The position numbers and the translations under genes were made by a program. This document shows, piece by piece, positions 860-61,381 of a stretch of 64,000 nt of DNA (the first letter of the stretch is position 1; every line of letters begins with the position of its first letter). The DNA comes from Zea mays (Eukaryota; Streptophyta; Magnoliopsida; Poales; Poaceae), in assembly GCF_902167145.1 (NCBI RefSeq), contig NC_050098.1, forward strand, positions 81,260,207 to 81,324,206, in the 5' to 3' direction. Under the pieces are notes generated by a model. It saw only the letters and a list, made by a program, of their open reading frames with translations, was not told the DNA's origin and did no database searches.

Positions 860-2306
860 CTTCCTTCAAGTTGTCTTATCTGTTGAACTTTTTCTCTGTT
901 TCTTTGACCATGTCAGGCCTGAAAAACCACCTTTCTCCGGGTTCTGACCAATTTAAGGGTGTCCGGCATCGTCGTCCGTACAGTGCTTCAAACGGTGCCA
1001 TCTTAATGCTTTCCTGATAGCTATTATTATAAGAAAATTCTGCCAATGGCAGACAATCATCCCATTTCTGCGGAAACTCCAGGACACATGCCCGTAGCAT
1101 ATCCTCCAGTATCTGATTTACTCTCTCAATTTGTCCACTTGTTTGAGGATGATAAGCCGAACTATGGAGCAACTTAGTACCCAAGGACTTGTGTAGCTCT
1201 TCCCAAAACTTGGATACAAATTGCGGTCCACGGTCCGACACTATTGTTTTTGGAACTCCATGTAAACTGAGAATATGGGCAATATAAAGCTCCGCATATG
1301 CGACCACTGGATATTTTGTCTTGACGGGACGAAAAAGAGCAATCTTTGTAAGCCGATCAGTTATGACCCAAATAGAGTCAAAGCCTTTGGCTGTCTTGGG
1401 CAATCCCACAATGAAATCCATACTAATATCTTCCCATTTCCAAATTGGGATGGGCAAGGACTGTAATGGTCCAGCGGTCTTCATATATACTGCCTTGACA
1501 CGTCTGCAGGTGTCACATCTTGCCACATAGCGTGCGATTTCAATCTTCATTTTTGTCCACCAATAATGTTGCTTTAAGTCTTGATACATCTTAGTACTTC
1601 CAGGGTTAATGGAATATCGACTAAGATGAGCTTCATCCAAGATCTGTTGGCGGACTTCAGCATTCTTTGGCACAACTATGTGATCTTTAAACCATATTAC
1701 TCCTTGGTCATCCTTCCTGAAGCAATTTGCTTTGCCGGCTTCTATTTTCTCATGAATATACTTCATACCCTTATCGGCTCTTTGGGCATCAATAATTCTT
1801 TGTAGAAGAATTGACTCAAGCTTCAAATTCCTCAAGGTTCCTTGTTGTACATTACTCAGGTTCAACTTTTCCATTTCTTGACATAGAGTGGTGTCAGGTG
1901 TTCTTACTGTAAAACAATGACAGGAAGCTTTGCGACTTAATGCATCTGCCACCACATTGGCTTTTCCTAGGTGATAATGGATCTCCAAGTCATAATCTTT
2001 AATTAGCTCAAGCCATCTTCTCTGCCTCATGTTCAGTTCTGACTGGGTAAAGATATATTTCAGACTTTTGTGATCCATATATAAATGACAAGTATTTCCC
2101 AGCAGATAATGAAGCCAAATCTTGAGGGCATGAACGACTGCAGCTAGTTCCAAGTCATCAATTGGGTAGTGTTCTTCATGCCGACACATTTGTCTTGAAG
2201 CATAAGCTATGACTCGTCCTTCTTGCATCAAGACACATTCGAGTCCACTGCCTGACGCGTCACAATATACATCAAAAGACTTTTCAATATCCGGTTGGGC
2301 CAACAC
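860..2306 (-). pseudogene. RNase H and integrase region of element A pol
   Basis: The minus-strand reading starts in RNase H ([16 protein letters not shown]-like [17 protein letters not shown]) and passes into integrase. The HHCC zinc-binding region includes HYWW and CDTCRRVK. The catalytic core shows DFIVGLP, VSDRGPQF and QTSGQIERVN, supplying the D, D and E residues. The reading stops at FNR just above 876. The sequence up to 860 still resembles the next integrase residues (DNLKEA) before it jumps into a second RT copy. The frame is open for 476 codons, which is long for a decayed element. The C-terminal domain and any chromodomain are missing here because of the duplication junction. Confidence 0.87.
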
Positions 2307-3256
2307 AGGGCAGTGGTTAATAACACCTTCAGCTGCTCAAAGGCTTCATTGCATTTTGAGGACCAATCAAACTTTGTATCATTCTTCAATAATGTCGTAA
2401 TGGGTTTAAAAATCTTGGAGAAATCTGGAATGAATCTGCGGTAATATCCAGCCAGTCCAAGGAAACTCCAAACTTGATGTACTGTAGTGGGTGGATTCCA
2501 TTCTAGAATATCCTTGACTTTGCTGTGATCGACCACAATCGCTTTAGCAGACAATACATGTCCAAAAAATTGGATTTCCTCCAACCAAAATGCGCCTTTG
2601 CTGAACTTGGCATACAATTGATGTTCCCTTAAGCGCATCAGCACGATCTGCAAGTGCTTTGCATTCTCCTCTTCATTTTTGGAATAGATTAAAATGTCGC
2701 CAATGAAGACTACCACAAATTTATCCAACTCGGGCATAAATACCGAGTTCATTAAATATGTGAAGTGGGCTGGAGCATTTGTTAATCTGAAAGACATGAC
2801 CAGATATTCAAATAACCCATACCGCGTAGTGAATGCGGTCTTGGGTATATCCTCGGGTCGAATACGGATCTGATGATAACCCGATCTGAGATCAATCTTG
2901 GAGAATACCCGAGCTCCTGTAAGTTGATCGAACAGAATATCGATCCGAGGAAGAGGATACTTATTCTTGATGGTAACCTCATTGAGGGGTCTATAGTCCA
3001 CGCACATTCGTAGTGTCTGATCCTTCTTCTTGACGAAGATTGCTGGACATCCCCACGGTGATGAACTTGGTCTGATGAACCCTTTCTCCAACAAATCTTG
3101 GAGTTGAGTCTTGAATTCTACTAGTTCATTAGGTGGCATGCGATACGACCTTCTAGAAATGGGAGCCATACCGGGCTTCAATTCAATCACAAATTTCCAC
3201 ATCCCTTTCAGGAGGCAGTCTGGGCAAGTCTTCGGGAAAGACATATGAAAATTCAC
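2228..3256 (-). pseudogene. Reverse transcriptase of element A, catalytic Asp lost
   Basis: The minus-strand frame covers most of RT: the linker [11 protein letters not shown], then [44 protein letters not shown] and the active-site strand. Active RTs have FIDD or YVDD at that strand; here it reads FIGD because codon GAC is GGC at 2698-2700 on the minus strand. The first catalytic aspartate of the pair is therefore gone. The frame ends after LLTTA through a one-base loss near 2310 that separates RT from RNase H. A second frameshift near 3200-3256 separates it from the protease. An active enzyme from this copy is not expected. Confidence 0.88.
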
Positions 3257-4853
3257 ATACCACTAGAATATCCTGAATTTCTTGTACTATGGTTTCGAAA
3301 ACTTGTCCAGATGCTTTGACTGGGACAGCTATAGGGATGGACAATTGGACTTCTTCATGACCATAACTTAACTTAATGGTCCTTTGGTCAGTATTGAGGA
3401 TGGCTTTATTCTGGGCTAACCAATTCATCCCTAGAATCACACATATATCTTGCCCCTTTATAACAATCATGTTTGTAAGAAATTCCCGTCTGGCCGAAGA
3501 TACGGGTATGTGGAAGGCTACTTCCTTAGTAAATATTCGGCCCCCAGGTGAATGGATAACAAATCCCTCCCTTGATTCAGTGCAATGTATGCAATATTTC
3601 TCCATAAAAGTCTTGCTTATGAAGGTATGTGATGCACCAGAATCGAAAAGGATAGCTGCTGGGCGGTTGGCAACAAGGAACGTACCCATCGTCACCGGTT
3701 CGCCTTCCGGTGTAGTAGCCACCTGGGTATAATAGACCCGTCCAGTTCTCTTCAAATTTTTGCCCGTAGAAGAGTTGGTCGTGTTCCCCTTTCCTTGATT
3801 TGATTTCCCAGAATTCTGCTGAAAGATGGATTTGTTTTGCTTCGGATATGGGCAGTCCTTGATAAAATGCCCGGACTTTCCACAGTTGAAGCAACCACTG
3901 GAGGAACTGGAAAGGGCAGGGAAACGAGTACCAGAGGCACTCGACTGATTGGTAGGAATGGGGCAGGAGTGGGACGAATAAATACGGGCTGCTTGAATGG
4001 ATATGAAGGTGGGCGAGGCGAAGAACAATTTGGATTGAAAGGTCGGATTACCAACCTTGTTCTCTTTTTAGGTCCTTGAGTTGATTTTTCACTCGCATAT
4101 CCCTTTGACTTTCCGTGTCCCGCATTTTTGGCTTCAACTACCAGTGCTGTATTGACAGCCCTACTGTATGTGAGGTCCAAACATGTCACCATCTTACGCT
4201 GAAGTCTGTCATTTAGTCCCCTCATGAAACAATTCTTCTTTTTCAGATCTGTATCCATGTGATCAATGGCGTATTGGAGAGGTGGTTGAATTTATTGAGA
4301 TACTGCATCACAGTATCCCCCCTTGCTTCAGTTGGATGAACTCTTCTAGTTTCATTTGGAGCACTCCCTCTGGAACATAATGTTCCTGGAATGCCAGCTT
4401 GAATTCTTCCCAAGTGACTTGATGTCCAACAGGCTGGATCTTGGAAAAATTCGCCCACCAGGTACTGGTAGGCCCTCTTAACTACTAAGCGGCAAACAGG
4501 GGCTTTTGCGTCTCCGTGCATCGGATTAGCCCAAACTTCTGTTCCATTACTCGCACCCATTCGTCGGCTTCCAAGGGTTCCTCTGCCTTGACGAAGAGCA
4601 GTGGACGAGTTTCAGAGAACTCCAGAGAGGTAGTATCTCGTGGTCCCTGAGGAGGAACTCTTCCTCCATGTTGTTGAAATTGGTTGCCCACCATTTTGCG
4701 CAGAAAGCGTGTGTTATCGGCGGTGGCGTTGACCAAGGCAGCGATAGCCTTGGCCAATGTAGGAGGTACGAGCGACGGATTGGGAGTGTCCTCCCCACCA
4801 CGAGATGTACCTACCCCATCATGTGCACGGGTCTGGGATGGCATCTGAGCCAA
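3183..4853 (-). pseudogene. gag and aspartic protease of element A, frameshifted
   Basis: Four overlapping minus-strand frames together cover gag and protease. Gag starts at 4853 (MAQMPSQTRA); its middle contains FVKAEEPLEADEWVRVMEQKF, typical of plant Ty3 gag. A CCHC zinc knuckle, CFNCGKSGHFIKDC, lies at about 3870-3911. The protease motif [12 protein letters not shown] follows at about 3610-3645, and later ILGMNWL. The reading hops between frames near 4490, 4250 and 3900, so the gene needs at least three frameshifts and is a pseudogene. The order gag, knuckle, protease, RT is normal. Confidence 0.86.
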
Positions 4854-4995: not shown

Positions 4996-5571
4996 CTAGT
5001 CTTCTTCATCCTTAGATGTTCCGCTGCCTGCTTCAAGAGACCATTCATCTGCCAGATTCATGGAAGGAGGGGCTCCAAAAAGGTCAATTCCCCCATCAGA
5101 TCCTCCATTTGTGGTTCCAGATGGTCCAGCTCCCATTGCTGCCAAATTAGGTGGCACGTTCGGATGCAGTCGATTATACAGTACATGCACTTCTTCATGC
5201 AAGGTGTTACAGTACGCCTGCAAGTTTTCGAGGGATGCGCTACGTTCTGCTACACAAGCTAGAGCTTTGGCTTCACAGTCCCAAGCAAAAGAGCGCGAAT
5301 TGATGGCCCAATCAATGGCCGTATCGCGTTCCAAAATTTCATACTGCAGGCGACTAACTTCGGCTGACAGCTCCGCTATACGATGGCTATCCCGCTCACG
5401 CGCCCTATTCCTGTGACGTTGTTCTGACCGAAGTTGTTCCACCCGGGCTTCCAGGTCTCCAATTGGGTCATTACTGCCACTACTACTTCCTTCATGCCTG
5501 GAGGCCAGCTGATGTCGAGGCACACCCTGAGGTTCAGTCGATTTGCGCTGGGTAGTCTTAGTGCGCGCCAT
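4996..5571 (-). CDS. Extra ORF between 5' LTR and gag with histone H3-tail-like N-terminus and coiled coil
   Basis: The open frame reaches back to 5613, but I choose the internal ATG at 5569-5571 because the residues that follow match the start of histone H3. After Met the protein reads ARTKTTQRKST, against ARTKQTARKST in H3, and then PRHQLA against PRKQLA. Residues 2-5 and 9-12 are identical. The rest (about 190 residues) is unlike histone. It has a Ser/Gly stretch, then a long heptad-rich Glu/Arg/Leu segment (LEARVEQLRSEQ to about HNRLHPN) that should form a coiled coil, then a Gly-rich acidic tail ending SGTSKDEED. It lies upstream of gag on the same strand, where element D also carries a coiled-coil ORF. 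The function is unknown; the frame is open throughout. Confidence 0.72.
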   Translation of the reverse strand: MARTKTTQRKSTEPQGVPRHQLASRHEGSSSGSNDPIGDLEARVEQLRSEQRHRNRARERDSHRIAELSAEVSRLQYEILERDTAIDWAINSRSFAWDCEAKALACVAERSASLENLQAYCNTLHEEVHVLYNRLHPNVPPNLAAMGAGPSGTTNGGSDGGIDLFGAPPSMNLADEWSLEAGSGTSKDEED

Positions 5572-5809
5572 ATCTCCATAAGAGGGGAAATTTATTAGTA
5601 TAGTTTTAAACATGATGCATGCGCAACCTAATAATTATGGGATCACACTTTCGTCGATCCCTTACTTCCTTATATATTGCACTCTGCTACCCGATTCTAA
5701 AAAGTAAGTTACAACCAGAAAGTGGCAAGATAAGAATGAAAGAATATTTTAAGGTGAGTATTTAAAAATTCTTTTGAAGTACTACGTAATGTCTGAAGAG
5801 ATGGGCTTC

Positions 5810-5821
5810 GCTCTGATACCA
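5810..5821 (-). other. Primer-binding site (initiator tRNA-Met) of element A
   Basis: The minus strand reads TGGTATCAGAGC, the complement of the 3' end of plant initiator tRNA-Met. It sits two bases inside the LTR edge. It fixes the minus orientation of the element and the inner border of the 5' LTR. Confidence 0.92.
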
Positions 5822-5823
5822 GC

Positions 5824-8800
5824 TATCACGGAACCTCCCAAGGTATTAGGCCCACCTACAGCTGTCCTTGTCCTAAGGATCTCGGACAACCCTGTAGATG
5901 CACATAATCACTTGACAAGTTCGGTCATCTGTATCCTCATCATTTCACCCAAGAGCGCTTTACCCATCACGTAGACATTACATCACATTGGAGGAAAGAA
6001 TAACTGAAATCATATTACAATAACTTAATTTACATTCATAAAATATAAGGAGAGAGTATTATTACAGTACCGGGTGTTATGAGCGCATAAAATATTATTA
6101 CATACCAGGGAGGCAAAACACCCTCCCGCACAAAGGTTTAGTGTTATCAAACTGGGAGGCAAACATCCTCCCGCACACACGATCACTGATTTGGCTCCTC
6201 CTTTGGTACCACCTTCGAGCAGAAACAGCAAAACTTCGTTGTTTCATCACCTACAATAACATGGGTTTGAAAACCTTGAGTACGGAGTGTACTTTCGCAA
6301 GTCTTACCCCACAAAGGAAAAGACTCTCAAGGATATGCTGGCTTGTGGGATTCAAGGTAGAACTGATCAAGAATCAAAGACTCTGTTTGCAGAAATGCTT
6401 ACTAACAATGGATCCTTAAAATTCCAATTTTATTATCAGGTTAAGTGAAGTTACCTGCATCTAAAGTTCTTTCTACCTAGTTCAAGCACTTGGCGTACAC
6501 TAGCCATCTTTTATCAACCCTTCACTTTACTGGATTGCTACGTGTAGGGCCGTGACCAAGTCTTCATATCCGAGAAGTAACAGCGATCTGAATCGATTAA
6601 TACTGAGCTGATGAGCTCCAACCACACGACATATGTAGCACTTAACCCTTGCATATGTCAACTCGCCACCGGGTTTCTCAAGACCAGACCGGGTTCACGC
6701 CAACCGAGAGCACAGATACACCACCGTCCAGCCTCTTCCCATGGAGGGTACATGCTACTCTCGCCATCTCTCCACTCCTATTGCGTGTTGGCCTTTTTGG
6801 TATTGGTCCGATCGAGGCAAATCTTACCCATGATGAGGCATGTGGCCAGTTAAAAGGTCCTCGATCATCAAGCCTACATCTGTATGGTCCTTAATCGACT
6901 CAGACAGAGACACTACACCAAGACTTCCTTCTTGTGCAAGTCACCCGCCCGGTCTCGTCTTTATCATTTTAACCCAAAGTTTGGTACCTGACAGAGGTAC
7001 ATCTTTCCAGATGTTGAACCCATCATGGCCATGATGGATTCACCATCAAATCTTTTCTTTTGAAAACTTCCCATAGCATATGAAGCATCATCTTTGTTTA
7101 AAACAAAACATTTTGTTTTCTAAGGCAAGACTAAGCATCAGAAAACTTTTAAGTAAAACAGGTATCAAGGAATGGTAAACAATTCCAAGGAAGGAAATGC
7201 AGCAATTGTTTAGCACTGAACTCCTATCACCTAATGCATCATTTCAAGTGATAAAGAGTTTGAAATAACAAGGAAGGGGTAAATGCACCGGGGCTTGCCT
7301 TGTGTTGTAGGAGACTCAGGATCTCTTCCACAAATATCAAAGTAGAAACTATTCTCGATAGGTGGAATTTCAGCTTGTGGGACAGTTTCTTCTTCGACTA
7401 TCACTTCTTCTTCATTTTCTACACATAACAATACATATACATAAATGCTTATGTGATGCTATGAATATGCAGTTATAATAGAAACAGACTAAGTTGTATC
7501 TTGAATATAACTTTCCTTCACGGTACACCTGAGTCACTCGGGTTTCCTGAGTTAGTACTCTATTAGGGTTAGGCAATTTTATCCTAGGAAGCTAGTGTCT
7601 TGGGTTTGGGTGCAAACAATGTCCAAACCATGTCAAACTTTACCTAAGGGCTTTAATCACAAACCCAAGCTTACTCAAAAAGTTTCATTATCTTTGGAGC
7701 TACCAATTTAATTCTAAAATTCTAAAAGACTAGGTTTAGGCATCCTTAAATGCTAAATAATTCCTGGTTGGATTAAAAATCATGAATCTATTTTTATTAA
7801 ATATTAGAGAAATTTAGGAGTCCAATAAAATTGGTATCATGATTTTATCATTTTTCTAGAATTTCCTATAAATTTCCTAAGCCCGGCAGAAAAAGAAAAA
7901 AGAAAAGAATGAATAGTGCTGGGCTGAATCCAGCCCAAGCCGGCCCGAGTAAGGAGGAAACACGTGCGCCCGCGCTGGCAACCTTGCGTAGAGACCCCTG
8001 TTGATTTGAAAAACCTGTAAAGAAGCGGCGGCAAAAACCTGTAAAGAAGCGGCGGCACTATTCACATGTTTCTCTGACATTCGCACTTAAGCCCTTGCAC
8101 TTCTATTTCTTCATCGCACTCGGTCCACGATGGTGAACGGCGATAAGTGCGCCCTCCGACGAACTTGTACTGGCCGGGATGCACAACGATCGGTGCCCTA
8201 ACTCGGTCGACACCTAATTCTACTCCTGGCGATCCTAATCCGACCCTCAATTGCACGAATTCGGCCCAGAGTTCATCTGTTCACGACGACGGCGAGACCT
8301 GAGGGAAAACTGAGGTGTTCTAGGTGACTCAATGTGGTCTAGTTCAATCAATCGGGTCTACGAGCAACAAGAGACTTAAGGGATGCTAGATCACCAAGCA
8401 GAGAGGCATGAACCAACCTGTAGATGGCTGGCCACGGTGAGAAGCTCACGGCGGCGCGGAAAACCGATTTGGGGGAAATCCCGAATTAAGGCGCTATGGT
8501 GGACGATTGGAGGCAAGGAGCGATGCACTGGGCGCGTAACAACCTAGAGGAGCTAGCTATGCACTCAATTTATAGAGACTAACAACGGTGGCACCCAATT
8601 TGAGGAAGACACGCTGGCGGTCGGAGAGAGGGGTAAGTTACTGGTGCGAGCTACCGTGGCAGTCACTGGCTAATGAGCTATGATGGTCACTGGTTACTCT
8701 CCATGACTAATGACGACGTGGTAAAACAGTCTAAGGCATGGCGTAACCGAGTGAACAACGGCAGCCACGTCGAGAGCCGCACAGCCACGTCACCGACAAG

Positions 8801-9867
8801 TGGGTACGGTGAACAGTCTGGTGATAGGGTCCAAGATCATCCCAGCGCCAAGATCTTTTACCCCGAGTCATTATCCACGCGCCACCGGGCACGAATCGCA
8901 GCACCGGCGTGAATCCTGGCGTGAGGATCACTGACGGCGAGATACGCTGCACCTGATCTTGTTCAGTACTGTACCATCTAAACCATTCATCAGAGCGTCT
9001 GACAGAGTGAGTTAGAGGGCTTGATTCCCAAACTTTTGTGTAGCAACTCATCAATCCTTCTGCAGCAAAGTTGTTTATCTATAATCTAGCTACAACTTTG
9101 TTACAAAGGTCTTGCGGAAACATCCACTAAATCCCCCACAATTCGATTACAGAGTTCATCGGATTTTACTATCAGTATAAATTTAGTCTTTAATAGTGAC
9201 AGACAGTCCAACTTCATGTCCATTTGTCTTCAATTTTTGTACAACACTAATGCTTAGTCACTTAATCAAAGTTGTGCTCCTCTCATAGCTCTACAAGATT
9301 GATGTATTGACCTAGGGAAAAATCCTCATGAATTAAGAAATACAAAGCTCCAAATTTGGCCTAATCACACTGAAATTAGAGCTAGCCACATAAGTGTGCT
9401 TGAGACTTTTTGCAATTAAGTCCAAATTGTCCCACAATACTTGAAAATCCTCCAATGTAAAAGTTGTTTGGTTTTTGATGTTCTACCACTTTGATATTAC
9501 ATTTTGGCCAAAAGTGTATAGAATTTGAATTCACCCCATAGGTCACAAATTAGGGTTTACTAGGGTTCCTTCTAGGGTTTTGAGCACTTTAGGGTTTTTG
9601 TGTCACTCAAATCCACCAAGTTGATATCTTGTGAACATTTCCAATGAATTTTGAGATATTACTCACATTGGCTTACTATTATCCACATGCCCTAATCCCA
9701 GGGTTAAGTACCCTACCCTAGGGTTAAGAATACTTCAAATCATCCCATCACATTTGTTCTGAAATTTTACCTAGTGGATGCATTCTAGGTGTAGCAAACA
9801 ACATGAAATGCCAATGCATATGATGTCATGCTCATGTTTTAGTGCCAGTAACACCAGGGGTGTTACA
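5824..9867 (-). repeat. 5' LTR of element A (about 4.0 kb)
   Basis: The inner edge is next to the PBS (plus strand TATCACGGAACC, so the expected terminal TG appears as TA). The outer edge reads GGGGTGTTACA on the plus strand, giving an LTR start of TGTAACACCCC on the minus strand. That start can fold with the adjacent GGTGTTACT as a short hairpin, as in other LTRs here. The partner LTR is outside the window, so the length rests on these two edges only. I see no gene inside; ORFs in it are short and unrelated to known families. The sequence 9540-9750 is rich in TAGGGTTT-like words. Confidence 0.8.
8568..8574 (-). promoter_or_regulatory. Candidate TATA box in the 5' LTR of element A
   Basis: The minus strand reads TATAAAT in the middle of the LTR, downstream (in element orientation) of the outer LTR half. 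Position and orientation fit an LTR promoter. No experimental support; short motif. Confidence 0.4.
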
Positions 9868-15464: not shown

Positions 15465-16326
15465 TGTAATACCTACTTTGTAAGAAAATCTAAAAAGAGA
15501 AATGAAATTCATGTATATATGTATGTGTGTTATCTCTACTTGTCATTTCATGTGGACACCTCACTTATACAAATGAATAAGTAATAAAAGGCACTCAAAC
15601 AAATCATGCATCATGCTGGTATTTTATTTTGTGTGCATTATGTGACAAAAAAACAGTGTAAAAAGGAATATATCAAAATCCAAAATTTGGAGATTTAACC
15701 CCAATTTGTAAATTGAAGTTTAGAAAAGAGAAAAGAAGGAAAATACAATGCAAATGAGATAAAATAAATATATAAATATACTTACCTTCCACTTATATTT
15801 GAAATAATACAATTTTTGAGGAAGGGTGAATTTCATAACCTAATCCAAATTCAAATTTGAATTCTAAAAGCAAAGAGGGAAAATAAATTCAGAAAAGAAA
15901 AACCAGAAAAAAATAAAAGAAGAAAACCGCGCTTGGGCCCAAGACCTGATTTCGGCCCATCTCCTCTTTCCTTCTCTTCCGCGGCCCACTACCTGACTCA
16001 GTCGCGCGCGCTGACCGGGTACATCTGGCGTACCGGGCCCACCCACCATTCGCATGCGCGCCTGGTGACTTGCATGCGGGCCCCACTGCTCAGCTCGCTC
16101 GCACTGGTGCACGGGGTTAATCGCTGGCGACCTAGGCCCACTGGATAGCCCATCCATTAACGGATGCTCGCGCCGTGTTTCACCGCCAAGTGGGGCAGCG
16201 TTGGCAGACCCGTCTTCTTCACCGACCCAGTCTTCGCGGCAACAAAATTGCGCGCGCCGAAGCTGGGGGACGCAAATCGCAGGGGATAGCTCGGGTCGTG
16301 CAATCGCTTTGACCCTCTCCTCCGCG

Positions 16327-16332
16327 TATAAG
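16327..16332 (+). promoter_or_regulatory. Candidate TATA box in element E LTR
   Basis: TATAAG after the GC-rich CTCCTCCGCG block; the same context recurs in the 3' LTR near 24109. Strand and position fit an LTR promoter. Confidence 0.45.
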
Positions 16333-18622
16333 TATTGGCACACCTCTTTGACTTCTCGTCCCTGTTGAACTAGCGTCCATACCCCAAGCCCTCACCATCG
16401 ACGCAGATAATGGACTAGTGCCGTCGCCGCTAGTGTTCTCAACCGTGAGTAACTTTGCGACCCCGAGGAGTGATCGAGGTGGGCAGTGGAGTCTTCGCCT
16501 TTCGTGCGAGTCGCATCGTCGTGAGGGATCGGTACCGGGTGATCGGCAATTGCTCGCCGTCGTAGGGCACTACCGCGAAAACCGCCTATCGCCGTGGATC
16601 AGCTTCAACTCTCGGCCAGTGACGGTAAACACCCTCCCCTGTTGTTCATAATAGCATGCGCTTCGTGTAGCACACTTTAGATTGGGTCAGGGGCGCTGGA
16701 ATGCCTATTGGGCACTGCTCCGGCAATGTCGCGCCGCGATTCGATGGGCGGCGCCGCCGGTGGTGGTCGGGGGAGACCAGCTCGTCCTAAGCCGTTGATG
16801 GCGCGATCTACAGTGTAGATTAGAGGGTGTGTACTAGGTTAGGTCAGAGTATTGTGGAGCATTCGATTCCAATCGAACGGATCGGTGCACGGACGAGATC
16901 GACACCGTCGGATTCGGATCGGATGGTGCTTAGCGCGTACCGATTCAATGTATAGTAGATCTAATCGAGGACGTAGAATTCCAATCGGACGGCCAGTGTC
17001 TGCCTGTACCCCTTCGGCCTTGTAATTTTGCGTAAGAGACCCTGCAGTTACCTTAATAACCCGCCGTCCATTTTTACTGTGCTCGGTGTCTGGGGATTCT
17101 TACTCCGAGCCCCCTTGGTTTCTCTGAATTTGAGGCCCAGTCCAGTCAACTCGAAAATCAGAGAAATAAAATAAAAATGGATTTTTAGTGAATAAATAAT
17201 TGCTAGAAAATTGTATAATTCATAGAAAATTCATTTGGGCTCCAAATTACTTCATTCCAGTTTCGAAAAATTTGTAATATTATTCTCCATCACATAGAGG
17301 ATCTGTTTTGTCATGAAAACAGTAATAAAATTAATTTCTCATTTAATCCTATTTCAAACACATTAAACCTTAGGAAATCCATAACTTAAAATCTATAACT
17401 CCAAATTTAATGATTCCTGTTCCTAGGGTCTTATTTTAATATGTAGATTTTTATCATGTATTTTATCTACATGTTTGGTGTGATGTTAAGTTTTGCTGTA
17501 CTATGTATGTATTGTGTTGATGTGATTAGACGAGCAAGCCACTGTGGATTCTGAGGTTCAGCAAGTAGAAGTAGCTGAGCAGGAGCTCACTGAAGGCAAG
17601 TTGTGCCCTTGATCACTTTTATTTACCCAATAATATTCTTTATTATCACTATTCAATGCATAGGTTTAATTTTGATGGGACCCAATAGGTCACCCTAGTC
17701 TGTTTATCCTGATTACCTTGTTTACCCCTGAATCACTTGGGTAGTCCTGCTATTGCTTTATATGGTTTTGGGTTAATATTTCATTATATCTATGTTCCAA
17801 TTATGTTGTTATTTTATTTATGTTCATGTCAAGATCATTAAATGTTAATTGGAACATAGAGCTTAACTTGAGAAACACGTGCCACCACACAAGGGTTTAA
17901 CGGGACGCCCTTGGCCAACTAACTAGGAAAGCTAGTGGAAGACTACCTTACCCGAAAGGGGCAAGGGTAGTAGGGGATTGCATGCAAGGAGGTTCTCGGG
18001 TTGATTTTGCTGCGATGGCGGTCAGATGAGGGATTCTTGGAAGTGTTCTTCCCATAAACTGTAGCGGGTTTTCGGAAGCTAGTGGAACTTTGTAAAGGCC
18101 ACGTAGTGGATCCCTAGCCATTCACCTCGGTAGTGTCTAAGGGTCTAGCTAACCCTGGTGGCATGGGATACACGACTTGTGGGTAAAGGGTACAACCTCT
18201 GCAGAGTGTAAAACTGGTATACTAGCCGAGCTCACGGTCACGAGCAGCTCAGGACTCTCTAATGATTAAATATGGAACCTAAACTCAATTTGTCATTTGC
18301 ATTGCATCGGATTTGTTAATTAATTTTGTTCTATTATTATTTATTATGTTTTGGTATTTACTTACATCTAGTAATTGCTAATAAAATTTTGACCAACTTA
18401 TTAAAAGCAATGCTCAGCTTTAACCCCTGTTGTTGATTAGCCTTACACATCACATGAACTCCCACCTTTGGTGAGTTCATGCCCACTGGTTCCCCACAAC
18501 TTGTTGAGCTATGATCATGTGTGGGCTCACCCTTCCTGTCTCACACCCCCCACAAGAGAAGAACAGGTGGTTCAGGAGGAGCCACACAATGAGGAGTTCG
18601 ATTCGATCTAGGTGGCGTCTCC

Positions 18623-19395
18623 TGTAACACCCCAAGTGTTACCATGGCCATGGCACATCTATGCACTAATGACTGTGATCACATGTGGAAGAAACTTGAG
18701 GAGAAGAGCATAAAAACTTGAGGTGACAAAAGATGTTGATTGATAAATTTGCTTGCTACCATGAATGAGTAGATAGTACACATCTAGTCTTAAGAGAGTC
18801 ACACTAAAACTTGACAAAGCTAAAACTTGATTTATAAACTCGGCTAGTGCTTTTGGCAACCAAAACCCACAACCAAACAGCTGCATGTCTAGAGGTAGAG
18901 GAGTAGACTCCTCACACCGGGTAAGTCTAGCTGAGTATTAGTATACTCAGCCTTGCTTGTGGCATAATTTTATAGGTTCTCTGGAGGACATGGTTGCTGG
19001 AGTGACTTGGCCATCCATCTTGCCACCGGGTTGGACAGTCGAGTGGGATCCTACCTCGGCTGAGGAGGAGCATGAGGAGTGATGGGACAGGCTTCCCCAT
19101 CTCTCTGTTTATTTTACCGTTAGTTTTATTTCGCTGCACTTCGAACAATGATGGCTACTTTTGCTAAAACTCCGATGAGGATGTAATAAGTTTAATACTC
19201 CTTATGTATGGTTTTATGCTTTATTGTATTTGCTCTGTGACTCACCATCGAGTGAGACCGTGGTACTTGATCCTGTCAGTGGCCTCGTGGGACTAGATCC
19301 GAGGGATTGACGGGTTATTCCCATTTAAGTGTGGTCTAGCTTCTAAGGCGGGACTTAGGCACTTAAGTTGGAATAATTCGGACAGTTCCGCCACA
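18623..19395 (+). mobile_element. Short solo LTR (773 bp) inside the 5' LTR of element E
   Basis: It starts TGTAACACCCC and ends GTTCCGCCACA. The sequence TCTCC stands on both sides (18618-18622 and 19396-19400). The 3' LTR of element E shows the empty site with one TCTCC at about 26400. Its ends and the segment around 18890-19080 match the reverse complement of the 4.68 kb LTR of element D (for example the GAGTATTAGTATACTCAGCC region), but nearly 4 kb of the middle is absent. So it is a related, much shorter LTR that inserted after element E did. Confidence 0.9.
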
Positions 19396-23246: not shown

Positions 23247-26200
23247 TGTAATACCTACTTTGTAAGAAAATCTAAAAGGAGAAATGAAATTCATGTATAT
23301 ATGTATGTGTGTTATCTCTACTTGTCATTTCATGTGGACACCTCACTTATACAAATGAATAAGTAATAAAAGGCACTCAAACAAATCATGCATCATGTTG
23401 GTATTTTATTTTGTGTGCATTATGTGACAAAAAAACAGTGTAAAAAGGAATATATCAAAATCCAAAATTTGGAGATTTAACCCCAATTTGTAAATTGAAG
23501 TTTAGAAAAGAGAAAAGAAGGAAAATACAATGCAAATGAGATAAAATAAATATATAAATATACTTACCTTCCACTTATATTTGAAATAATACAATTTTTG
23601 AGGAAGGGTGAATTTCATAACCTAATCCAAATTCAAATTTGAATTCTAAAAGCAAAGAGGGAAAATAAATTCAGAAAAGAAAAACCAGAAAAAAATAAAA
23701 GAAGAAAACCGCGCTTGGGCCCAAGATCTGATTTCGGCCCATCTCCTCTTTCCTTCTCTTCCGTGGCCCACTAGCTGACTCAGTCGCGCGCGCGCTGACA
23801 GGGTACATCTAGCGTACCGGGCCCGCCCGCCATTCGCACGCGCGCCTGGTGACTTGCATGCGGGCCCCACTACTCAGCTCGCTCGCACTGGTGTGCGGGG
23901 TTAATCGCTGGCGACCTAGGCCCACTGGATAGCCCATCCATTAACGGATGCTCGCGCCGTGTTTCACCGCCAAGTGGGGCCGCGTTGGCAGACCCATATT
24001 CTTCACCGACCCGGTCTTCGCGGAAACAAAATCGCGCATGCCGAAGCTGGGGGACGCAAATCGCGGGGGATAGCTCGGGTCGTGCAATTGCTTTGACCCT
24101 CTCCTCCGCGTATAAGTTCCGGCGCACCTCTTTGACTTCTCGTCCCTGTTGAACTAGAGTCCATACCCCAAGCCCTCACCACCGACGCAGATAATGGACT
24201 AGTGCCATCGCCGCCAGTGTTCTCAACCGTGAGTAACTCTGCGACCTCGAGGAGTGATCGAGGTGGGCCGTGGAGTCTTCGCCTTTCGCGCGAGTCGCTT
24301 CGTCGTGAGGGATCGGTACCGGGTGATCGGCAATTGCTCGCCGTCGAAGGGCACTGCCACGAAAATCGCCTATCGCCGTGGACCGGCTTCAACTCTCGGC
24401 CAGTGACGGTAAAGACCCTCCCCTGTTGTTCATACTAGCATGCGCTTCGTGTAGCACACTTTAGATTGGGTCAGGGGCGCTGGAATGCCTATTGGGCACT
24501 ACTCCGGCAATGTCGCGCCGCGGTTCGATGGGCGGCGCTGCCGGTGGCAGTCGGGGGAGACCGGCTCGTCCTGAGCCGTTGATGGCGCGATCTGCGGTGT
24601 AGATTAGAGGGTCTGTACTGGGTTAGGTCAGAGTATTGTGGAGCGTTCGATTCCGATCGAACGGATCGGTGCACAGACGAGATCGACACCGTCGGACTCA
24701 GATCGGATGGTGCTTAGTGCGTACCGATTTGATGTATTGTAGATCTAATCGAGGACGTAGAATTCCAATCAGACGGCCAGTGTCTGCCTGTACCCCTTCG
24801 GCCTTGTAACTTTGCGTAAGAGACCCTGCAGTTACCAGAAAATAATCCGCCGTCCATTTTTACTGTGCTCGGTGTCTGGGGATTCTTACTCCGAGCCCCC
24901 TGGGTTTCTCTGAATTTGAGGCCCAGTCCAGTCAACTCGAAAATCAGAGAAATAAAATAGAAATGGATTTTTAGTGAATAAATAATTGCTAGAAAATTGT
25001 ATAATTCATAGAAAATTCTTTTGGGCTCCAAATTACTTCATTCCAGTTTCTAAAATTTTGTAATATTATTCTCCATCACATAGAGGATCTGTTTTGTCAT
25101 GAAAACAGTAAGAAAATTAATTTCTCATTTAATCCTATTTCAAACACATTAAACCTTAGGAAATTCATAACTTAAAATCTATAACTCCAAATTTAATGAT
25201 TCCTGTTCCTAGGATCTTATTTTAATACGTAGATTTTTATCATGTATTTTATCTACATGTTTGGTGTGATGTTAATTTTTACTATACTATGTATGTATTG
25301 TGTTGATGCGATTAGACGAGCAAGCCACTGTGGATTCTGAGGTTCAGCAAGTAGAAGTAGCTGAGCAGGAGCTCACTGAAGGCAAATTCTGCCCTTGATC
25401 ACTTTTATTTACCCAATAATATTATTTATTATCACTATTCAATGCATAGGTTTAATTTTGATGGGACCCAATAGGTCACCCTAGTCTGTTTCTCCTAATT
25501 ACCTTGTTTACCCCTGAATCACTTGGGTAGTCCTGCTATTGCTTTATATGGTTTTGGGTTAATATTTCATTATATCTATGTTCCAATTATGTTGTTATTT
25601 TATTTATGTTCATGTCAAGATCATTAAATGTTAATTGGAACATAGAGCTTAACATGAGAAACACGTGCCACCACAAGGGTTTAACGGGACGCCCTTGGCC
25701 AACTAACTAGGAAAGCTAGTGGAAGACTACCTTACCCAAAAGGGGCAAGGGCAGTAGGGGATTGCATGCAAGGAGGTTCTCGTGTTGATTTTACTGCGAT
25801 GGCGGTCAGACGGGGGATTCTTGCAAGTGTTCTTCCCATAAACTGTAGCGGGTTTTCGGAAGCTAGTGGAACTTTGAAAGGCCTCGTAGTGGATCCCTAG
25901 CCATTCACCTCGGTAGTGTCTAAGGGTCTAGCTAACCCTGGCGACATGGGATACACGACTTGTGGGTAAAGGGTACAACCTCTGCAGAGTGTAAAACTGG
26001 TATACTAGCCGAGCTCACGGTCACGAGCAGCTCAGGACTCTCTGATGATTAAATATGGAACCTAAACTCAATTTGTCATTTGCATTGCATCGGATTTGTT
26101 AATTAATTTTGTTCTATTATTATTTATTATGGTTTGGTATTTACTTACATCTAGTAATTGCTAATAAAATTTTGACCAACTTATTAAAAGCAATGCTCAG

Positions 26201-26604
26201 CTTTAACCCCTATTGTTGATTAGCCTTACACATCACATGAACTCCCACCTTTGGTGAGTTCATGCCCATTGGTTCCCCACAACTTGTTGAGCTATGATCA
26301 TGTGTGAGCTCACCCTTGCTGTCTCACACCCCCCATAGGAGAAGAACAAGTGGTTCAGGAGGAGCCACACAATGAGGAGTTCGATTCGATCTAGGTGGCG
26401 TCTCCTAGCCAACTTTCTGGCACCAAGGATGGATTTTAGATCCTGTTATATTTATCTTTTGTTTTGTAAGACTTCTGCTATGTAATAAGTACTCTGATTA
26501 TATTGTGACATTTATCTCTATACACTCTGTTATTATATATGTTGTCTTCTTTGGCGCATGTATGAGATGCACCCGACTTTGTCCCTTAAAGCCCGGGTGT
26601 GACA
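23247..26604 (+). repeat. 3' LTR of element E (3,358 bp)
   Basis: Direct repeat of 15465-19599 without the solo LTR. The insertion point reads GGCGTCTCCTAGCCAAC, the empty site. Differences from the 5' LTR are scattered substitutions and small indels. Confidence 0.93.
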
Positions 26605-32640: not shown

Positions 32641-33309
32641 CGAGCGTCGTCGTCCCCAGCCCGTCGTCGTCCATCGTCCGCTCGTGCCCCGACGGGAATC
32701 AGTAACTGAGGTATAATTCTATCTATATGTAAATAAGTATTGATTATTTTCGTCGGTTTTTTGTGGCCGACGGGAGTTAACTTTCATGTGATTAGAGTTA
32801 GTTTAAAATTGTTAATTTATAGTGTTTTTAGTTTTCATATGACTTTATGCATTATTGAATGTAAATGCGAGTGCGATTGTTAATGTAAATGCGAGTGCGA
32901 TTGTTAAATTTTTGTATACATGCTTATTTTCGTCGGTTTTTTATGACCGACGGGAGTTAACTTTCATATGATTAGAGTTAGTTTAATATCACATGTGATT
33001 AGAGTGTAATTAGAGTTAGTTTAATTTCACATGTGTGGCTTGATGTTAGGTAAATATTAATTCTATTATTATAATAGATTTAACTTATGCTATTGAAATG
33101 TTGAATTTGATGTTATTTAATAATTAGATTCAACTTATAATATTAGGTTGTATGAAGGTTTCGATATTGATAAATTTAATGTTATTTATGTATATATATA
33201 GTTATTTATGTATATATATAGTTTTACTACTTACCTATAGATGTATGTGTGACGTGTAGAAACGTGATTGTCTCACACACACTCTTTACTCGTACACACA
33301 GCCGCAATA

Positions 33310-34719
33310 ATGTGTGATAGACGTGATTGGATGTATGAAGGTTTCAAGAAGGGTGGGTGTCACACAAGTGAATGGTTTGCCAAGACGCAGATATTTCTGG
33401 ACCATGCAGCTGCTTTGTCACAAATAGATAATATTAGGTGTCCATGCAATAAATGTAGAAATATGACGAGCCACACCAAGAAACAGGTCACACTACACCT
33501 GTGCTCACATGGTTTCGTGCCAGGCTATAAGGTCTGGTATCTCCACAGTGAAGATGTTGAACGAGCAACAGAAGTAGAAGTTGATGATGGTGAAGATGAT
33601 GTTGATAGGATGGACCAGATGCTTGAGGATCTGCAACCTGAACTAGCACCAGATCATCATGATTCACCTACACCGGAGGTTCAGAAGTTCTTCGACCTAC
33701 TCAAAGTGTCAGAAGAGCCTCTTCACGGGCACACTGACGTGACCGTACTGGAATTCGTGACCCGGCTGATGTCAATCAAGTCCAAGTTTGCATTCTCAAT
33801 TAATTGTTACAAGGAGCTTGTGGATTTGATTAGCGAGGTTCTTCCTACGGGTCACAAGATGCCCAAAGACATGTACCAGTCCAAGAAATTGCTTGAAGGT
33901 CTTGGTATGGAGTATGAGAAGATTGATGTTTGCCAAGACAACTGTATGCTTTTTTGGAAGGAACATGGCAGAGAACAGAAATGCTTAAAATGTGGGAAGT
34001 CGAGGTACGTGGAGCTTGTAAATGAAGATGGGGAGAAGGTGGTGACAAAGGTTGCACATAAACAACTTCGGTACATGCCTCTCACTCCTAGAGTGAAACG
34101 TTTGTTTCTCTCGAGGAAGACCGCTATGCACATGAGGTGGCATAAAGATTGTACGGACAGACAAGATGGGTTAATGGTGCACCCGTCAGATGGTGATGCA
34201 TGGAAGGCTCTTGACAAATTTGATCCAGATTTTGCCAGCGATGCAAGAAACGTTCGTATCGGCTTGGCAACTGATGGTTTCACGCCGTTCAATATGACCG
34301 CTGCGTCGTATTCATGTTGGCCTGTCATTGCCATACCGTACAACCTTCAACCTGCTCTTTGCATGAAATATGAGTTTATGTTCCTATGTCTTGTTATACC
34401 TGGTCCTGAGCATCCTGGCGTACGCCTCAATGTGATGCTTCAACCACTGATTGAAGAGTTAAAGAAGCTATGGCAAGGTGTGGAAGCCTATGATTGCTTC
34501 AAGAAGCAGAAATTCAATCTTCGTGTTGCATATCTGTTCTCGGTTCATGATTTTATGGCGTATGGTATTTTCTCTAGATGGAGCGTGCATGGTAGATTGA
34601 CGTGTCCTTATTGTGCTAAAGATACAGATTGTTTTCATCTTAGTGCTGGTGGCAAGATATGTTACTTTGATTGCCATAGATGTTTTCATCTTAGTGCCTA
34701 TGGCCGCCACTCAAAATAG
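33310..34719 (+). pseudogene. TnpD-like CACTA transposase, N-terminal half
   Basis: I start at the ATG 33310 (MCDRRDWMYEGFKKGG) rather than at 33268 because this motif opens the transposase-associated domain, which continues with VRCPCNKCRN-like IRCPCNKCRNM and LCSHGFVPGYKVWYLH. The Transposase_21 region follows: LGMEYEKIDVCQDNCMLFWK, CLKCGKSRYV, MRWHKDC, IGLATDGFTPFNM (candidate first catalytic Asp) and VHGRLTCPYCAKDT. At about 34625-34710 a short duplication of the words TGTTTTCATCTTAGTGC ends the reading with a stop. The middle of the transposase, usually several hundred residues with the rest of the catalytic site, is absent before the downstream DUF4216-like part. Confidence 0.88.
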
Positions 34720-49006: not shown

Positions 49007-50578
49007 TGTAACACCCCGTCCAATCCCTGGACCGGCGGTACTTACTCCTGGCAGCTCTCTAGGATCATATATCGTTCCCACAGACCAACACAGGTCTTTT
49101 GTGCGCATTTTTCCTCACTCATGTGAACCATCTTAGGGGCTAGGACATCACCATCCCAGGGGCCAGGATATCACAGTAGAAGTTGTGGCAGAAGGTGTGG
49201 AGGGAGCAGTGGAGCGAGGCCAAGATGTGAGGCGACGAACTCTATAGGCAATTTGATCGGAGGAAATCTCAAACTGTCCTCCCCGCTCTGTCTGTTCTGC
49301 TATTGCTGCCGCTGCAAGTGCTGCACGAGCGGCTCTGTCCATACGACGCTTCTTTCGGCATTTCTGCTGCTCAAGGTACACAGTCTTCCCCTTGACCTGC
49401 CTGAAGGGGCGAGGAGGATCCTTGTCGTCTCCTCCCCCTAGCGCTGAGACATTCTTCGTCCGCACCATCCTAACCTGAGTGTTGCATAAGTGATTGAAAG
49501 GCTAAGCAGGAGTAGATAGCATAAGATAAGATCATAAGTGAATGGATAGCTACCTAGAAACCTCACGAGAGAGAGAGAATCCAGGCAGGATAGGAGACGG
49601 GCACGCAGGCAGGTGAGATCACTGACATGACAAAAGAGGTGAGCACGTATTAGTCACATAGTCATAAGTATATGAAATTTGAATAAATACATACACAAAG
49701 AGTGAAGACACAAGAACTGACTGATATGGAGAATCAGATCTCAAACGACGCGAAAACAACGTTTGAACGAAGAAAATAGGCCATAGGAGGTTTGAAATTG
49801 GAGATGGGGCATTGAATGACTTGGGAGCTGATACTTCACAAGTAGTTATATATGAGTGCATATGAGTGAAGTGTGCGCTTGGTTTGAAATTTGGCGAAGA
49901 AAATGAATTTATGGCACTCAGCTCAGAAACAATCGTTATATATGTGAAATAGTGATGTAATCGGTGTTTGGGATTACGGATTGGCGTGAAATTTGGCAAA
50001 AGTGTTTCTTGAGCTGTCATGAAGGTGCTAGAAAAATCTGGGGTTTTGAGCAAGTTTAGCTAGTTTGGGCATTTCACCGAGCACTTGGCATGCGGGGTTT
50101 TGCATTAAGGGTGAAATGGCTATTTGAGTGGATGAATCCTTCTCTAGGGAGCTCAAGACCTACAGAGGAACTTAATGGAGCACTAGACACACACATGCAC
50201 ATGATTTATGAGATTTCCTAGGATTTTGAGAAGATTTGCAAAAGGGGGGGTGAAGCTCCTCCTCACTAGCAGAGAGAATAGAGGGAGAGGGAAAGAAGAT
50301 AGCTCACCAGGAGGAAGAGGAAGGATCCGAGCACAGGCTGGGGCAGACCTCATAGGAGATCTGCTGGAGCACATCGGCGGTGAGGGAGAGGGAAATCGCC
50401 AGAGCACCAGAGACCGAGAGGAGAGGAGTAACTGAATGCCTGGCTCAGGCTCGGTTGGGGAAAGAATTTTTTAAAAACCAGTTATGGGCACACCGGACAG
50501 TCTACAGTGCATGGCCGGTGCACACCGGACAGAGAGACTCCGAACTAGATCTGCACGCTCCCAGCCGGTGCACCGGAC
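49007..50578 (-). repeat. 5' LTR remnant of element X, cut by element D
   Basis: The inner edge follows the PBS; the outer edge is not seen because element D begins at 50579. The last 100 bp contain CACACCGGACAG and GGTGCACCGGAC, words of the Sirevirus palindrome. Apart from the short ORF at 49148-49468 no gene is seen. Identification rests on the PBS and on the border only. Confidence 0.5.
49148..49468 (-). CDS. Short ORF of unknown function in element X
   Basis: 107 residues starting MVRTKNVSALGGGDDKD, then a basic part (KTVYLEQQKCRKKRRMDRAA), an Ala-rich stretch and a Trp-containing end. No known domain. It lies in what looks like an LTR, which is unusual, or in a leader misread as an LTR. 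The V-R-T-K start recalls, weakly, the ARTK start of the element A ORF. Confidence 0.4.
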   Translation of the reverse strand: MVRTKNVSALGGGDDKDPPRPFRQVKGKTVYLEQQKCRKKRRMDRAARAALAAAAIAEQTERGGQFEISSDQIAYRVRRLTSWPRSTAPSTPSATTSTVISWPLGW

Positions 50579-53500
50579 TATGGCGGAACCACCCGAATTA
50601 TTCCAGCTTAAGTGGCTAAGTCAGGCCTCAGGGGCCGTAACACACTTAAATCGGAATAACCCGTCAGTCCCTCAGATCTAGTCTGATAGAGCCACTTAAC
50701 CAGGATCAAATTCCACAATCTCACTCGAAGGTGAGTCACAGAAGAAATACAATAAAACAGGAAACCTCAAATTAAGTACTGAGTTATTACATAAATCGGA
50801 GTTTTGGAGTAGCAAATAAGAGTTCACAAAAATAAAATGCAGCGGATAATCGACGTCGTCGGTATCGAGGAAATGGGCAAGGCCAAGCCCACTACTCCTC
50901 GTGCTCCTCTCCTGCCGGAGCAACATCCCACTCGACCGTCCAACCCGGTGGCAGGGTGGTAGGCCAAGTCACACCATCAACCATTTCCTGAATGGTACCT
51001 GCAAAAATTGTGCCACAAGCAAGGCTGAGTATACTAATACTCAGCTAGACTTAACCGGTGTGAGGAGTCTACTCCTCTACCTCTAGACTATGCAGCTGTT
51101 TGGGTGAGGGGTTTGGTTTGCCAAAAGCACTAGCTGTTTCTAAAATCAATTTTTAGCGTTTCAATTTCTATCATCATTAACTTAGCTAGATTTGCTCCTT
51201 CTAAGCATACATGGTGACAAGCATTTAGTTCAATCAACAAGTTATCTCATGTAACCTCATTTCACTTCTTACTCGATGCAGTACAAGGGGTCAAGCAGTC
51301 TCATTAGCTGCGAGAAGCAGACGATTCGAATCGAGTTTTAACCTTGCAAGGTAAACCTAAACACACGACATGTCAGGGTACTCCGACCCCACACATGACA
51401 ACCGTCCCCATCGATTCCACGTTCGCGTCCTGGCCTCACCGCCTTGGCATACAATGCTCCACTGACCCCGGCTGCCGCCGTGCAGTGACCGCACTTGTAC
51501 CCATCATAGCTAGCATGGGAGACCCAGTCTCAGGTCGCATGAGGGATAAAGTCCGCGCCCGGCTTCACTCAGGTACTAGGTTTACCGGTTACCATTTTTC
51601 CCGGCATGTGCTTAGCACGTTCAAAAGCTTGACTCAGGTATCCACACATTAATCCTTAATTCTTTTTCCCGTCTCATGGTCAAGGCATCCTCCCTGGATC
51701 CAAGTCCATAGACCAACATATATCCCGTTATCAAGATGAATACAATCAATTCCTGACCTCGCGCGAGTGCTAGAAAAATCACTCGACTTCTACCGAGATC
51801 CTGATTAGCAAGCAGCTACTCGACCTAGCATACTAGTATTCATCTCAAAAAGGAATCCTAAGTTCATGCAACTAGAGGTTTCAAGCAACTCCTACACTTA
51901 AGTGCACATTACAATCCTACAAGCATTAAGTGTAGTAAAATAGCATAATTAACAGGTTATGCATAAAACCGGGGCTTGCTTTCAATTGCTGGTGCTGCGG
52001 GGAGATCCTCAATAGCAGCCTCGGAAGCCTGCTCCTGGTCCTCCTCTTGGACAGGTCCCTGCTCAGGGATGAGCACGTACTCTCCGTCGGCAAGATTACA
52101 ATCTAATGAATGCAATGCGTAAGATACATGCATGATATGATATGTACTTTTAGAAATTACAACTTTTGATGGTGTATGATCTACTTGAGTTAAACAAGGT
52201 TAACTTTACTGATGTAAGACCCTTGGGTGGTATACTTGGTAAATTGGGTTAAACTTAGCTAAGGCAAGTGGTAGGTTTATTTTTTTTGGGGCTCCACTGA
52301 ATTCCTTTTTAAACCTTAGTGAGAATTGATAAGTACTCAAGTTAGACTTATTGGGGTGAGGTTTATTCCTTCTTTCCTTTTCTTTTATTCTCTTTAATGT
52401 TTTAAAGTGGGTTTGAACTACAAGTTACTTTTATAAAATTCCACGAATTCTGCAAAAATTACAGTGGCTTGGTGCTGGTGTATGTTTCTCTGTCTAAAAA
52501 TTTGGGGATCAGAAAGTGAATAGTTTTCTCTGGACAAAATTATTAAATTCTAGGGCAGAAGGGGTGCTTTGAACTACAACTATTATTTAACAATGAGTAA
52601 TTCTCTAAAACTTATTTTTGCTGGCTTTTAGGTGCTATAACATGACTTCATGCAAATTTCTAGTCATTAATACCTTTTAGTTATTTTACTATGGTTTTCT
52701 CAAGTTTCTAGCCAAGTAGGTGCTTTCTACTACCACTATATTTGAAAAATATCAAACAACAAAGTTCTTATTTTTCTTAGTTTGTATTTTGCGCAAGAGC
52801 AATCATTTTGAAGTTTGGCATCTTTTTGCTTAAGGGAAGGGGTGCTATGCATTATTTGAATTAAGTGGCCTTTCTCATAAATCCTTAGCAACATGTATGA
52901 GTTTGCTCCTTTTTCATGGGTTTGCATTTTTCACTGGTGGTTTATCTCATTATGGACTTAGCAAATTTTTGGTTGCCCATTATTGCATCATTAGGGGTTG
53001 TTCATGACTTATTTGGAAAATGCCTCATTATCACTTTATATTTATTTTCCTTACTTAAAATGTTGGGCTGAGGTGTTCTTTAATTTTATAGTGGGGCTCT
53101 AGTGGTTGTAAGTCCACTGGATTTTTATTATCCATTTTGGGTATAGTTTTGTAATTCTAATAATTGATTTTTAGTTGAAACAACGCTAAATAAAACATTT
53201 TAATTTAAAACTGATCTGAACTAATGGTCTCTTTATTTTTCCTAGGTTCTCTGTTACTTAAGCAAACTAGGAAAAATAATTCTAATCACTGTTCATCAAT
53301 TTCTAATGCCTTTCCGATTTTTCCTAAGTTTTGGGCAAAATAGCTTTAAATGAATATCTACATCATATTTTTCAATACTGGGGTTCCTACTATTTTTAAA
53401 CAATGTCTAAATGAGGTTTGAATACCTACAAATTTTCTTAGGTTCAGTACAGAAGTAAAACTAATTTTCCTTAATTAAACAAGGTTTGGTCAGTTTCCGT

Positions 53501-55512: not shown

Positions 55513-56208
55513 TTACGTACCAGCTTCCTTAGGTAGGTAATCGGGGAAGTTGGATCTCAAGAATTCCTCGGTTTCCCAAGTAGCTTCCTCCTCTGAGTGA
55601 TTACTCCACTGGACCTTGTACATCTTGATCGATTTAGCCCGAGTTGATCTTTCTTTGCAATCTAGAATCTTGGAGGGGTACTCTTGGTACGATAGATCTG
55701 GCTCTATCTCCAATTCTGGCTCTGCTATGATCTCGGTCGGCAATCGAACACACTTCTTCAGCTGAGATACATGGAATACACTGTGAATGGCAGACATTTT
55801 TGAAGGTAACTTCAGCTCGTATGCCACGGGTCCACATGCTTCTATAATCTCATAAGGTCCAATGTAACGAGGGGCTAGCTTGCCTTTGATCCCAAACCTC
55901 TGCACTCCCTTGGTGGGTGATACCTTGAGGTATACAAAACTTCCCACCTCGAACTGGAGAGGTTTCCTTCTTCTATCATGGTAACTCTTCTGCCTGGCCT
56001 GAGCAGCTTCTAGATTCTTCCTGATTAGTTTGACCTTCCTTTCGGCTTCAGTCACTAAGTCAGGTCCAAAAACTTCTCTTTCTCCAGGTTGAGACCAATT
56101 GAGTGGTGTCCTACACCTTCTTCCATAGAGAGCTTCAAAGGGTGCCATCCTTAGGCTGGATTGATAACTATTGTTATAAGCAAACTCTGCCAAGGAGAGG
56201 TGCTTATC
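55513..56208 (-). pseudogene. Integrase C-terminus with chromodomain of element D
   Basis: This is the continuation of gag-pol in the same frame after a single TGA (56209-56211). It encodes AEFAYNNSYQSSLRMAPFEA, GRRCRTPLNWS, RRKPLQFEVGSFVYLKVSP, PRYIGPYEIIEACGPVAYEL and VFHVSQLKKC. It ends with a chromodomain, about residues 165-222 of the open part: YPSKILDCKERSTRAKSIK and YKVQWSNHSEEEATWETEE. The aromatic/acidic pattern fits a Tekay-type chromodomain. Stop at 55513-55515. Only one stop separates it from the main frame. Confidence 0.9.
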
Positions 56209-59871: not shown

Positions 59872-60130
59872 CTGAAAACAGAGATTGTCGCCATTGTTAT
59901 CCCAACTCACAGTTTCGAACGACAAGATATCATCTCATATGGAAGGAAAAAAAGCCATAATCATAATATTATATTCGAAATGAAGATAACATGGTGACAA
60001 ATACCCCACAGATTTCAAAAGTTCACAGGGTTACATCAATCAGGGGAAGTACCCATAAGCCTAGTCCAAAATCTGACATTAACTAAGCTCGCATAGGTTT
60101 CTATCCGCCTAAAAGTGTCGAAGTGACTGC

Positions 60131-61379: not shown

Positions 61380-61381
61380 GC

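Follow-up and report, generated by a model that had tools for sequence, protein, structure and literature searches.

A conserved accessory ORF of a maize Del/Tekay-type retrotransposon carries an N-terminal tail resembling that of histone H3

Introduction

The rice retrotransposons Retrosat2, RIRE3 and RIRE8, together with grass homologues, carry an extra sense open reading frame, ORF0, between the 5' LTR and gag-pol (Gao et al., 2012; PMC3485330). In the part of that paper available to us, the ORF0 of grass Del/Tekay elements is described as fast-evolving and without established function, and the word 'histone' does not occur in connection with it. Such an additional ORF ahead of gag is a known feature, and to that extent the locus described here, first noticed in a sequence-only reading, is not new. 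Likewise, 'histone' is not found in the available part of Vicient and Casacuberta (2020; PMC7264820), nor an H3-like ORF in that of PMC12786077. Neumann et al. (2019; PMC6317226, in part) set a minimum of 250 codons for the extra ORFs that they counted, so that an ORF0 of 191 codons would be missed. Another plant-retroelement accessory protein, possibly directed at the epigenetic machinery of the host, is the AlkB m6A demethylase encoded by orchid Ty3/gypsy elements (PMC9289625, as described in the available part of PMC12786077); this is an enzyme domain, whereas the ORF0 tail described below is a putative peptide mimic.

Our full-text literature search, which left preprints and most subscription papers outside its scope, found no earlier report of a likeness between ORF0 and histone H3. 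Known histone mimics include influenza NS1 and the self-methylation site of G9a, where, as in the ORF0 studied here, a non-histone protein contains a short stretch resembling H3 around a K9- or K4-like lysine. ORF0, a putative mimic, differs from these in that its segment is N-terminal and is carried by a retrotransposon coiled-coil protein.

Results and discussion

We analyzed a stretch of 64,000 nucleotides of maize DNA (hereafter the window). The ORF that the sequence-only reading had pointed out there, with no strand named, is real and lies on the minus strand (Table 1). It is an ORF0, a conserved accessory ORF that follows the primer-binding site and precedes gag in a Ty3/gypsy element of Del/Tekay type and high copy number. 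On the minus strand, Pfam matches follow each other in the order protease, reverse transcriptase (RT), RNase H and integrase, as in the Ty3/gypsy chromovirus Del/Tekay lineage, and the primer-binding site is one that we take to be of the tRNA-iMet type. Six of 38 copies have an exact 11-base match to this site, and in these the ORF0 start lies 246-250 nt away from it. The LTR ends in TTCCGTGATA in the window copy and in TTCCGTCACA in three of six readable copies. Between the 3' LTR, which lies left of the window, and the stretch 7618-9867 of the 5' LTR, identity is 90% and K2P is 0.072 (2192 sites compared); at 1.3e-8 substitutions per site and year, this corresponds to about 2.75 million years.

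Table 1. Positions of ORF0, its parts and the surrounding element features in the window
Feature	Position	Strand	Basis or remark
ORF0	4996..5571	minus	open frame of 191 codons and a stop, beginning at 5571
H3-like basic N-terminal tail, residues 1-25	5497..5571	minus	15 identities to H3 1-24, shuffle test, pN/pS 0.26, disordered in model
Single long helix, residues 36-135	5167..5466	minus	AlphaFold2; coiled-coil matches in Pfam, weak and sub-threshold
Acidic disordered C-terminal part, residues 136-191	4999..5166	minus	model; net charge -8; pN/pS 0.52
Primer-binding site TGGTATCAGAGC	5810..5821	minus	exact match
5' LTR	5824..9867	minus	3' end (5824) adjoins primer-binding site; far end at least to 9867
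Decayed gag region, overlapping ORF pieces	4243..4853	minus	flanked by ORF0 and the zinc knuckle
Zinc knuckle and aspartic protease	3183..4028	minus	Pfam zf-CCHC, RVP_2
Reverse transcriptase	2228..3256	minus	Pfam RVT_1
RNase H and integrase	876..2306	minus	Pfam RT_RNaseH, Integrase_H2C2, rve
Element B, second, better kept chromodomain gag-pol element	55513-61006	minus	ORF 56209-59925, Chromo in 55513-56193
Element B, upstream coiled-coil ORF pieces	60131-60559 and 60563-61006	minus	without H3-like tail

Like the ORF0 of Retrosat2, RIRE3 and RIRE8, that of the window lies between the primer-binding site (5821-5810) and the gag region (from 4853) of a long-LTR, Del/Tekay-type element, a comparison made by position and by the description in the available part of PMC3485330; the LTR end of Retrosat2 and RIRE8 given there, GGGCGTGACA, differs from that of the window element. 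Candidate names for the maize element family are found in the available part of PMC2774510. The gag region gave no Pfam match at 0.01, and an RT/RNase H segment is partially duplicated (1-859 against 1907-2765, 97%). The description of ORF0 as a frame left open in an otherwise decayed element therefore fits the window copy, whose pol is broken and partly duplicated, but not the family, where ORF0 is open in many other copies.

Concerning the start codon, the window copy has an alternative in-frame ATG at 5613, from which translation would bury the H3-like tail inside the protein. In 71 of the 77 open copies with sufficient flank, the frame meets a stop, and no ATG, upstream of the start corresponding to 5571, which rules out the 5613 start as that of the family; the remaining six, the window copy among them, do have an upstream in-frame ATG, and 17 further open copies (MPP) fell outside this test as their upstream flank is too short. 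The bases ahead of the start (GGAGAT-ATG; 5572-5581, minus strand) are found again in many copies and include an out-of-frame ATG 8 bases upstream; P0112 and P0116 are among the database proteins that begin at this out-of-frame ATG.

The AlphaFold2 model (64 rows, mean pLDDT 74.3, pTM 0.38) consists of a disordered basic tail, one helix of 100 residues (36-135) and an acidic disordered end, with a net charge of +5 over residues 1-25 and -8 over residues 136-191. The helix presumably forms an oligomeric coiled coil. No histone match for ORF0 was found in Pfam, and the rest of the protein is indeed unlike any histone, as had been noted from the sequence. A histone pseudogene is ruled out, since neither Pfam nor the model gives a histone fold.

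The likeness to histone H3 is confined to the tail. The identity at 9 of 11 positions between ARTKTTQRKST and H3 ARTKQTARKST is confirmed, as is the match of PRHQLA to PRKQLA after a one-residue offset. Aligned from the initiator Met, residues 1-25 show 15 identities to H3 with one gap, PR.QLA included, and the same alignment gives 16 and 14 identities in two other copies (L016 and L102). The window copy thus shares ARTK.T.RKST..PR.QLA with H3, and most relatives have TARKSTG; ORF0 differs in its one-residue offset, in having H for K18, in lacking equivalents of K14, K23 and K27, and in being without the histone fold. The window copy's H3 score of 55 was reached once in 200,000 shuffles of its own letters (Gumbel p ~6e-5), and the scores of three relatives (58 to 64) in none of 200,000 each (p ~2e-5 to 5e-6). 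Among the 648 ATG-initiated N-termini of 30 residues on both strands of the window, the ORF0 tail ranks first; the runner-up (41) is the same tail read from the upstream ATG, and the best unrelated N-terminus scores 35. In a search of the PDB with the single sequence, an H3 peptide came third (E 0.72) after two unrelated chains, and with a profile of 64 members H3 was the best match (E 0.035). The likeness exceeds what composition explains, but many ORFs were read, which leaves it short of proof. It is unlikely to be due to chance, yet not beyond chance when the number of ORFs read is multiplied by that of well-known histone tails, and all the less so if many windows were read.

At least 150 ORF0 copies were scored in the maize genome for query P0001 (5173 candidates), and at least 150 each with the database proteins P0120 and P0232 (5121 and 5246 candidates), both of which have 100% matches there. 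We read 117 copies chosen from the best matches, mostly those without stops; 94 of them are open over at least 185 codons, a proportion that is not a genome-wide rate. Database homologues were taken as the best 120 of 1567, 1799 and 1809 in overlapping sets, giving with the window's ORF0 a set of 329 proteins (328 from the database). The tail was located in 298 of these; the other 31, where it is truncated or was not located, were excluded, some being frame-shifted copies without a tail. Since the database proteins are metagenomic and at least two come from maize itself, they do not form an independent species sample. Contigs of viruses and prokaryotes yielded no confirmed ORF0 relative.

Midpoint-rooted, the tree built from residues 26-191 has the shape of a ladder, with the steps MARTK..KAT, MARTKTTQRKST (the group of the window copy), MARTRKTARKST, MPRTRKTARKST and MPPRTRKTARKST. 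Mean terminal branches differ among the subfamilies (Kruskal p 9e-6): 0.067 for KAT (n=5), 0.056 for MARTK KST (n=35), 0.054 for copies with P or L at position 1 (n=6), 0.043 for MARTR (n=31) and 0.034 for MPP (n=17). By this measure the MPP subfamily, which starts MPPRTR, looks the youngest. The exact H3 start, ARTK, occurs in groups with longer terminal branches, though the midpoint-rooted tree gives no direction of change. Across the 298 relatives, position 1 is A in 104 and P in 148, and position 4 is K in 67 and R in 224; the exact H3 start (A1, K4) thus marks some subfamilies only and is not a family feature. Much more constant are K9 (290), T11 (281), T6 and S10 (278 each) and T3 (275). 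G12 (257) and A7 (172) complete TARKSTG, and at both of these positions the window copy differs from H3. The core common to the family is the K9 segment T-x-R-K-S-T-G (often TARKSTG) together with PRHQLA.

Selection was measured by pairwise pN/pS counts on the 94 open copies only, with CpG decay removed and residues counted from 0, so that the interval 25-34 corresponds to residues 26-35. The overall ratio of 0.27 to 0.28 (0.28 for 25-190) indicates purifying selection on ORF0. By part, it is 0.26 for 1-24, 0.07 for 25-34, 0.23 for 35-135 and 0.52 for 136-190; a first run on 77 copies had given 0.30 (tail) and 0.26 (remainder). The dN/dS measurement that the sequence-only reading had proposed for the start of the ORF thus comes out as purifying selection, with the tail as a whole no tighter constrained than the helix (0.26 against 0.23). 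Within the tail, however, the ratio is 0.14 at the fifteen H3-identical positions, where G12 was included by family majority, and 0.48 at the nine others (permutation p 0.016). Conservation in the 94 copies is highest at K9 (93), T11 (89), T3 and T6 (88 each) and S10 (86), while R8 is kept in 77, the rest having H or C, as expected from CpG decay. A1 is present in 61 copies, and position 4 is K in 39 and R in 54. The non-H3 positions H19 (94/94), V16 (90/94) and P13 (89/94) are equally conserved, so that likeness to H3 can hardly be the only constraint on the tail. Whether the H3-like start is kept across copies had been put forward as a check; it is kept in many copies, under purifying selection and with the H3-identical positions the tighter ones, but this does not hold for K4 and A1. 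Similarly, copies sharing the coiled coil without the ARTK/RKST residues, which had been named as evidence against mimicry, exist in part: some subfamilies have the helix without ARTK, but these retain RKST.

Two further stretches of ORF0 are also conserved. HEGSSSGSND (residues 26-35; 5467-5496, minus strand), which adjoins the tail and is disordered in the model, shows the tightest constraint of the protein (0.07), and the C-terminal part (4999-5166, minus strand) contains the near-invariant columns DLF.....SMNLADE, a possible short binding motif.

A more specific proposal was that the tail is bound by the chromodomain of the integrase that the element itself encodes. A chromodomain-like stretch (L098) of the element lies just left of the window; its Chromo score of 16.5 bits is below the Pfam cut-off of 25.1. 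In the PDB it had no match with an E-value up to 1, and it is 50% identical to the chromodomain of element B, which exceeds the cut-off. A motif search picked out L098 alone of four stretches, the others being L099-L101 from three further copies, and the aromatic cage was accordingly assessed in the window's element and in element B. In both, the third cage position is H, the first falling outside the alignments. The available part of Neumann et al. (2019; PMC6317226) moreover reports seed-plant chromoviruses without the aromatic cage. Although the ARTK start of the window's subfamily and the chromodomain-like stretch of the element would suit such a self-encoded ligand, the H at the third cage position, the reported absence of the cage and the loss of K4 and A1 make it very improbable.

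We tentatively favour a reading in which ORF0, as a helical oligomer, presents host readers or writers with an H3K9-like tail. After Met removal, the oligomer would put on display several copies of the segment T-A/Q-R-K-S-T-G, followed by P-R-H-Q-L-A, which could be bound by host factors that write or read H3K9. The protein might thereby be either a decoy, weakening the silencing of the element, or a tether of element particles at heterochromatin. Such multivalent display is favoured by a tail that is selected, H3-like around K9 and carried on a long helix. It agrees with a likeness above that of shuffles, ranking first of 648 N-termini and making H3 the best PDB match of the profile (E 0.035), and with the H3 residues A7 and G12 in relatives where the window copy mismatches. 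It also agrees with purifying selection on the tail, tighter at H3-identical positions and with K9 in 93/94 copies and 290/298 proteins, with a disordered tail on a long helix, and with an ORF start that is fixed at the tail in 71 of 77 testable copies. Nearly as likely, in our estimate close to but slightly below this, is that ORF0 is a real, selected coiled-coil accessory protein whose tail is an ordinary basic disordered segment, for RNA or Gag contact or nuclear import, with a coincidental H3 likeness. Against H3K9 display count a likeness found by reading many ORFs, a tail no tighter than the helix, G12 entering the H3 set by family majority, weak PDB E-values (0.72, 0.035), the conserved H19, V16 and P13, the still more conserved residues 25-34 (0.07), and A1 and K4 lost in most relatives. 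The last four points also speak for the ordinary basic segment. The combination of a basic tail with an acidic end suits it as well. It is weakened by the shuffle test, which preserves basic composition, by the tighter H3-identical positions (p 0.016), and by H3 residues in relatives where the window copy is without them.

An improbable origin of the tail, yet one that accords with a collinear match of 14 to 16 identities that starts at residue 1 or 2 and has one gap, is capture by the element of a host H3 gene's 5' end, leaving a true H3 relic put to a new purpose; this is not visible in the DNA, where copies already differ widely at synonymous sites (pS ~0.5), and both the histone fold and the later H3 residues are absent. 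Returning to H3K9 display, its fullest form, in which a plant retrotransposon family of high copy number encodes a multivalent H3K9-tail mimic whose coiled-coil oligomer sequesters, or docks on, the host H3K9 silencing machinery, is a possibility that we advance with more reserve still. We know of no such retroelement strategy. Of the original suggestion of a mimic of the modified H3 tail, the selected K9 segment and PRHQLA survive, A1/K4 do not, and the own-chromodomain ligand is unlikely. A selected H3-like tail gives a concrete idea of how a retroelement might imitate the chromatin tail through which the host silences it; if this is true, an abundant family of heterochromatic elements would owe its success in part to histone mimicry.

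The upstream coiled-coil ORF pieces of element B show no detectable homology to ORF0 (BLASTP E 1.8; hhalign probability 1.7). To judge from these two elements, the lineage may commonly carry a coiled-coil ORF upstream, with the H3-like tail confined to one family. Elsewhere in the window, direct repeats at 15465-18623 with 23247-26406 (96%) and at 50578-53195 with 61381-63998 (97%) are probably LTR pairs of further elements, and the plus strand holds an ORF of 483 aa (33268-34719) that we take, from its appearance, to be a CACTA-type transposase.
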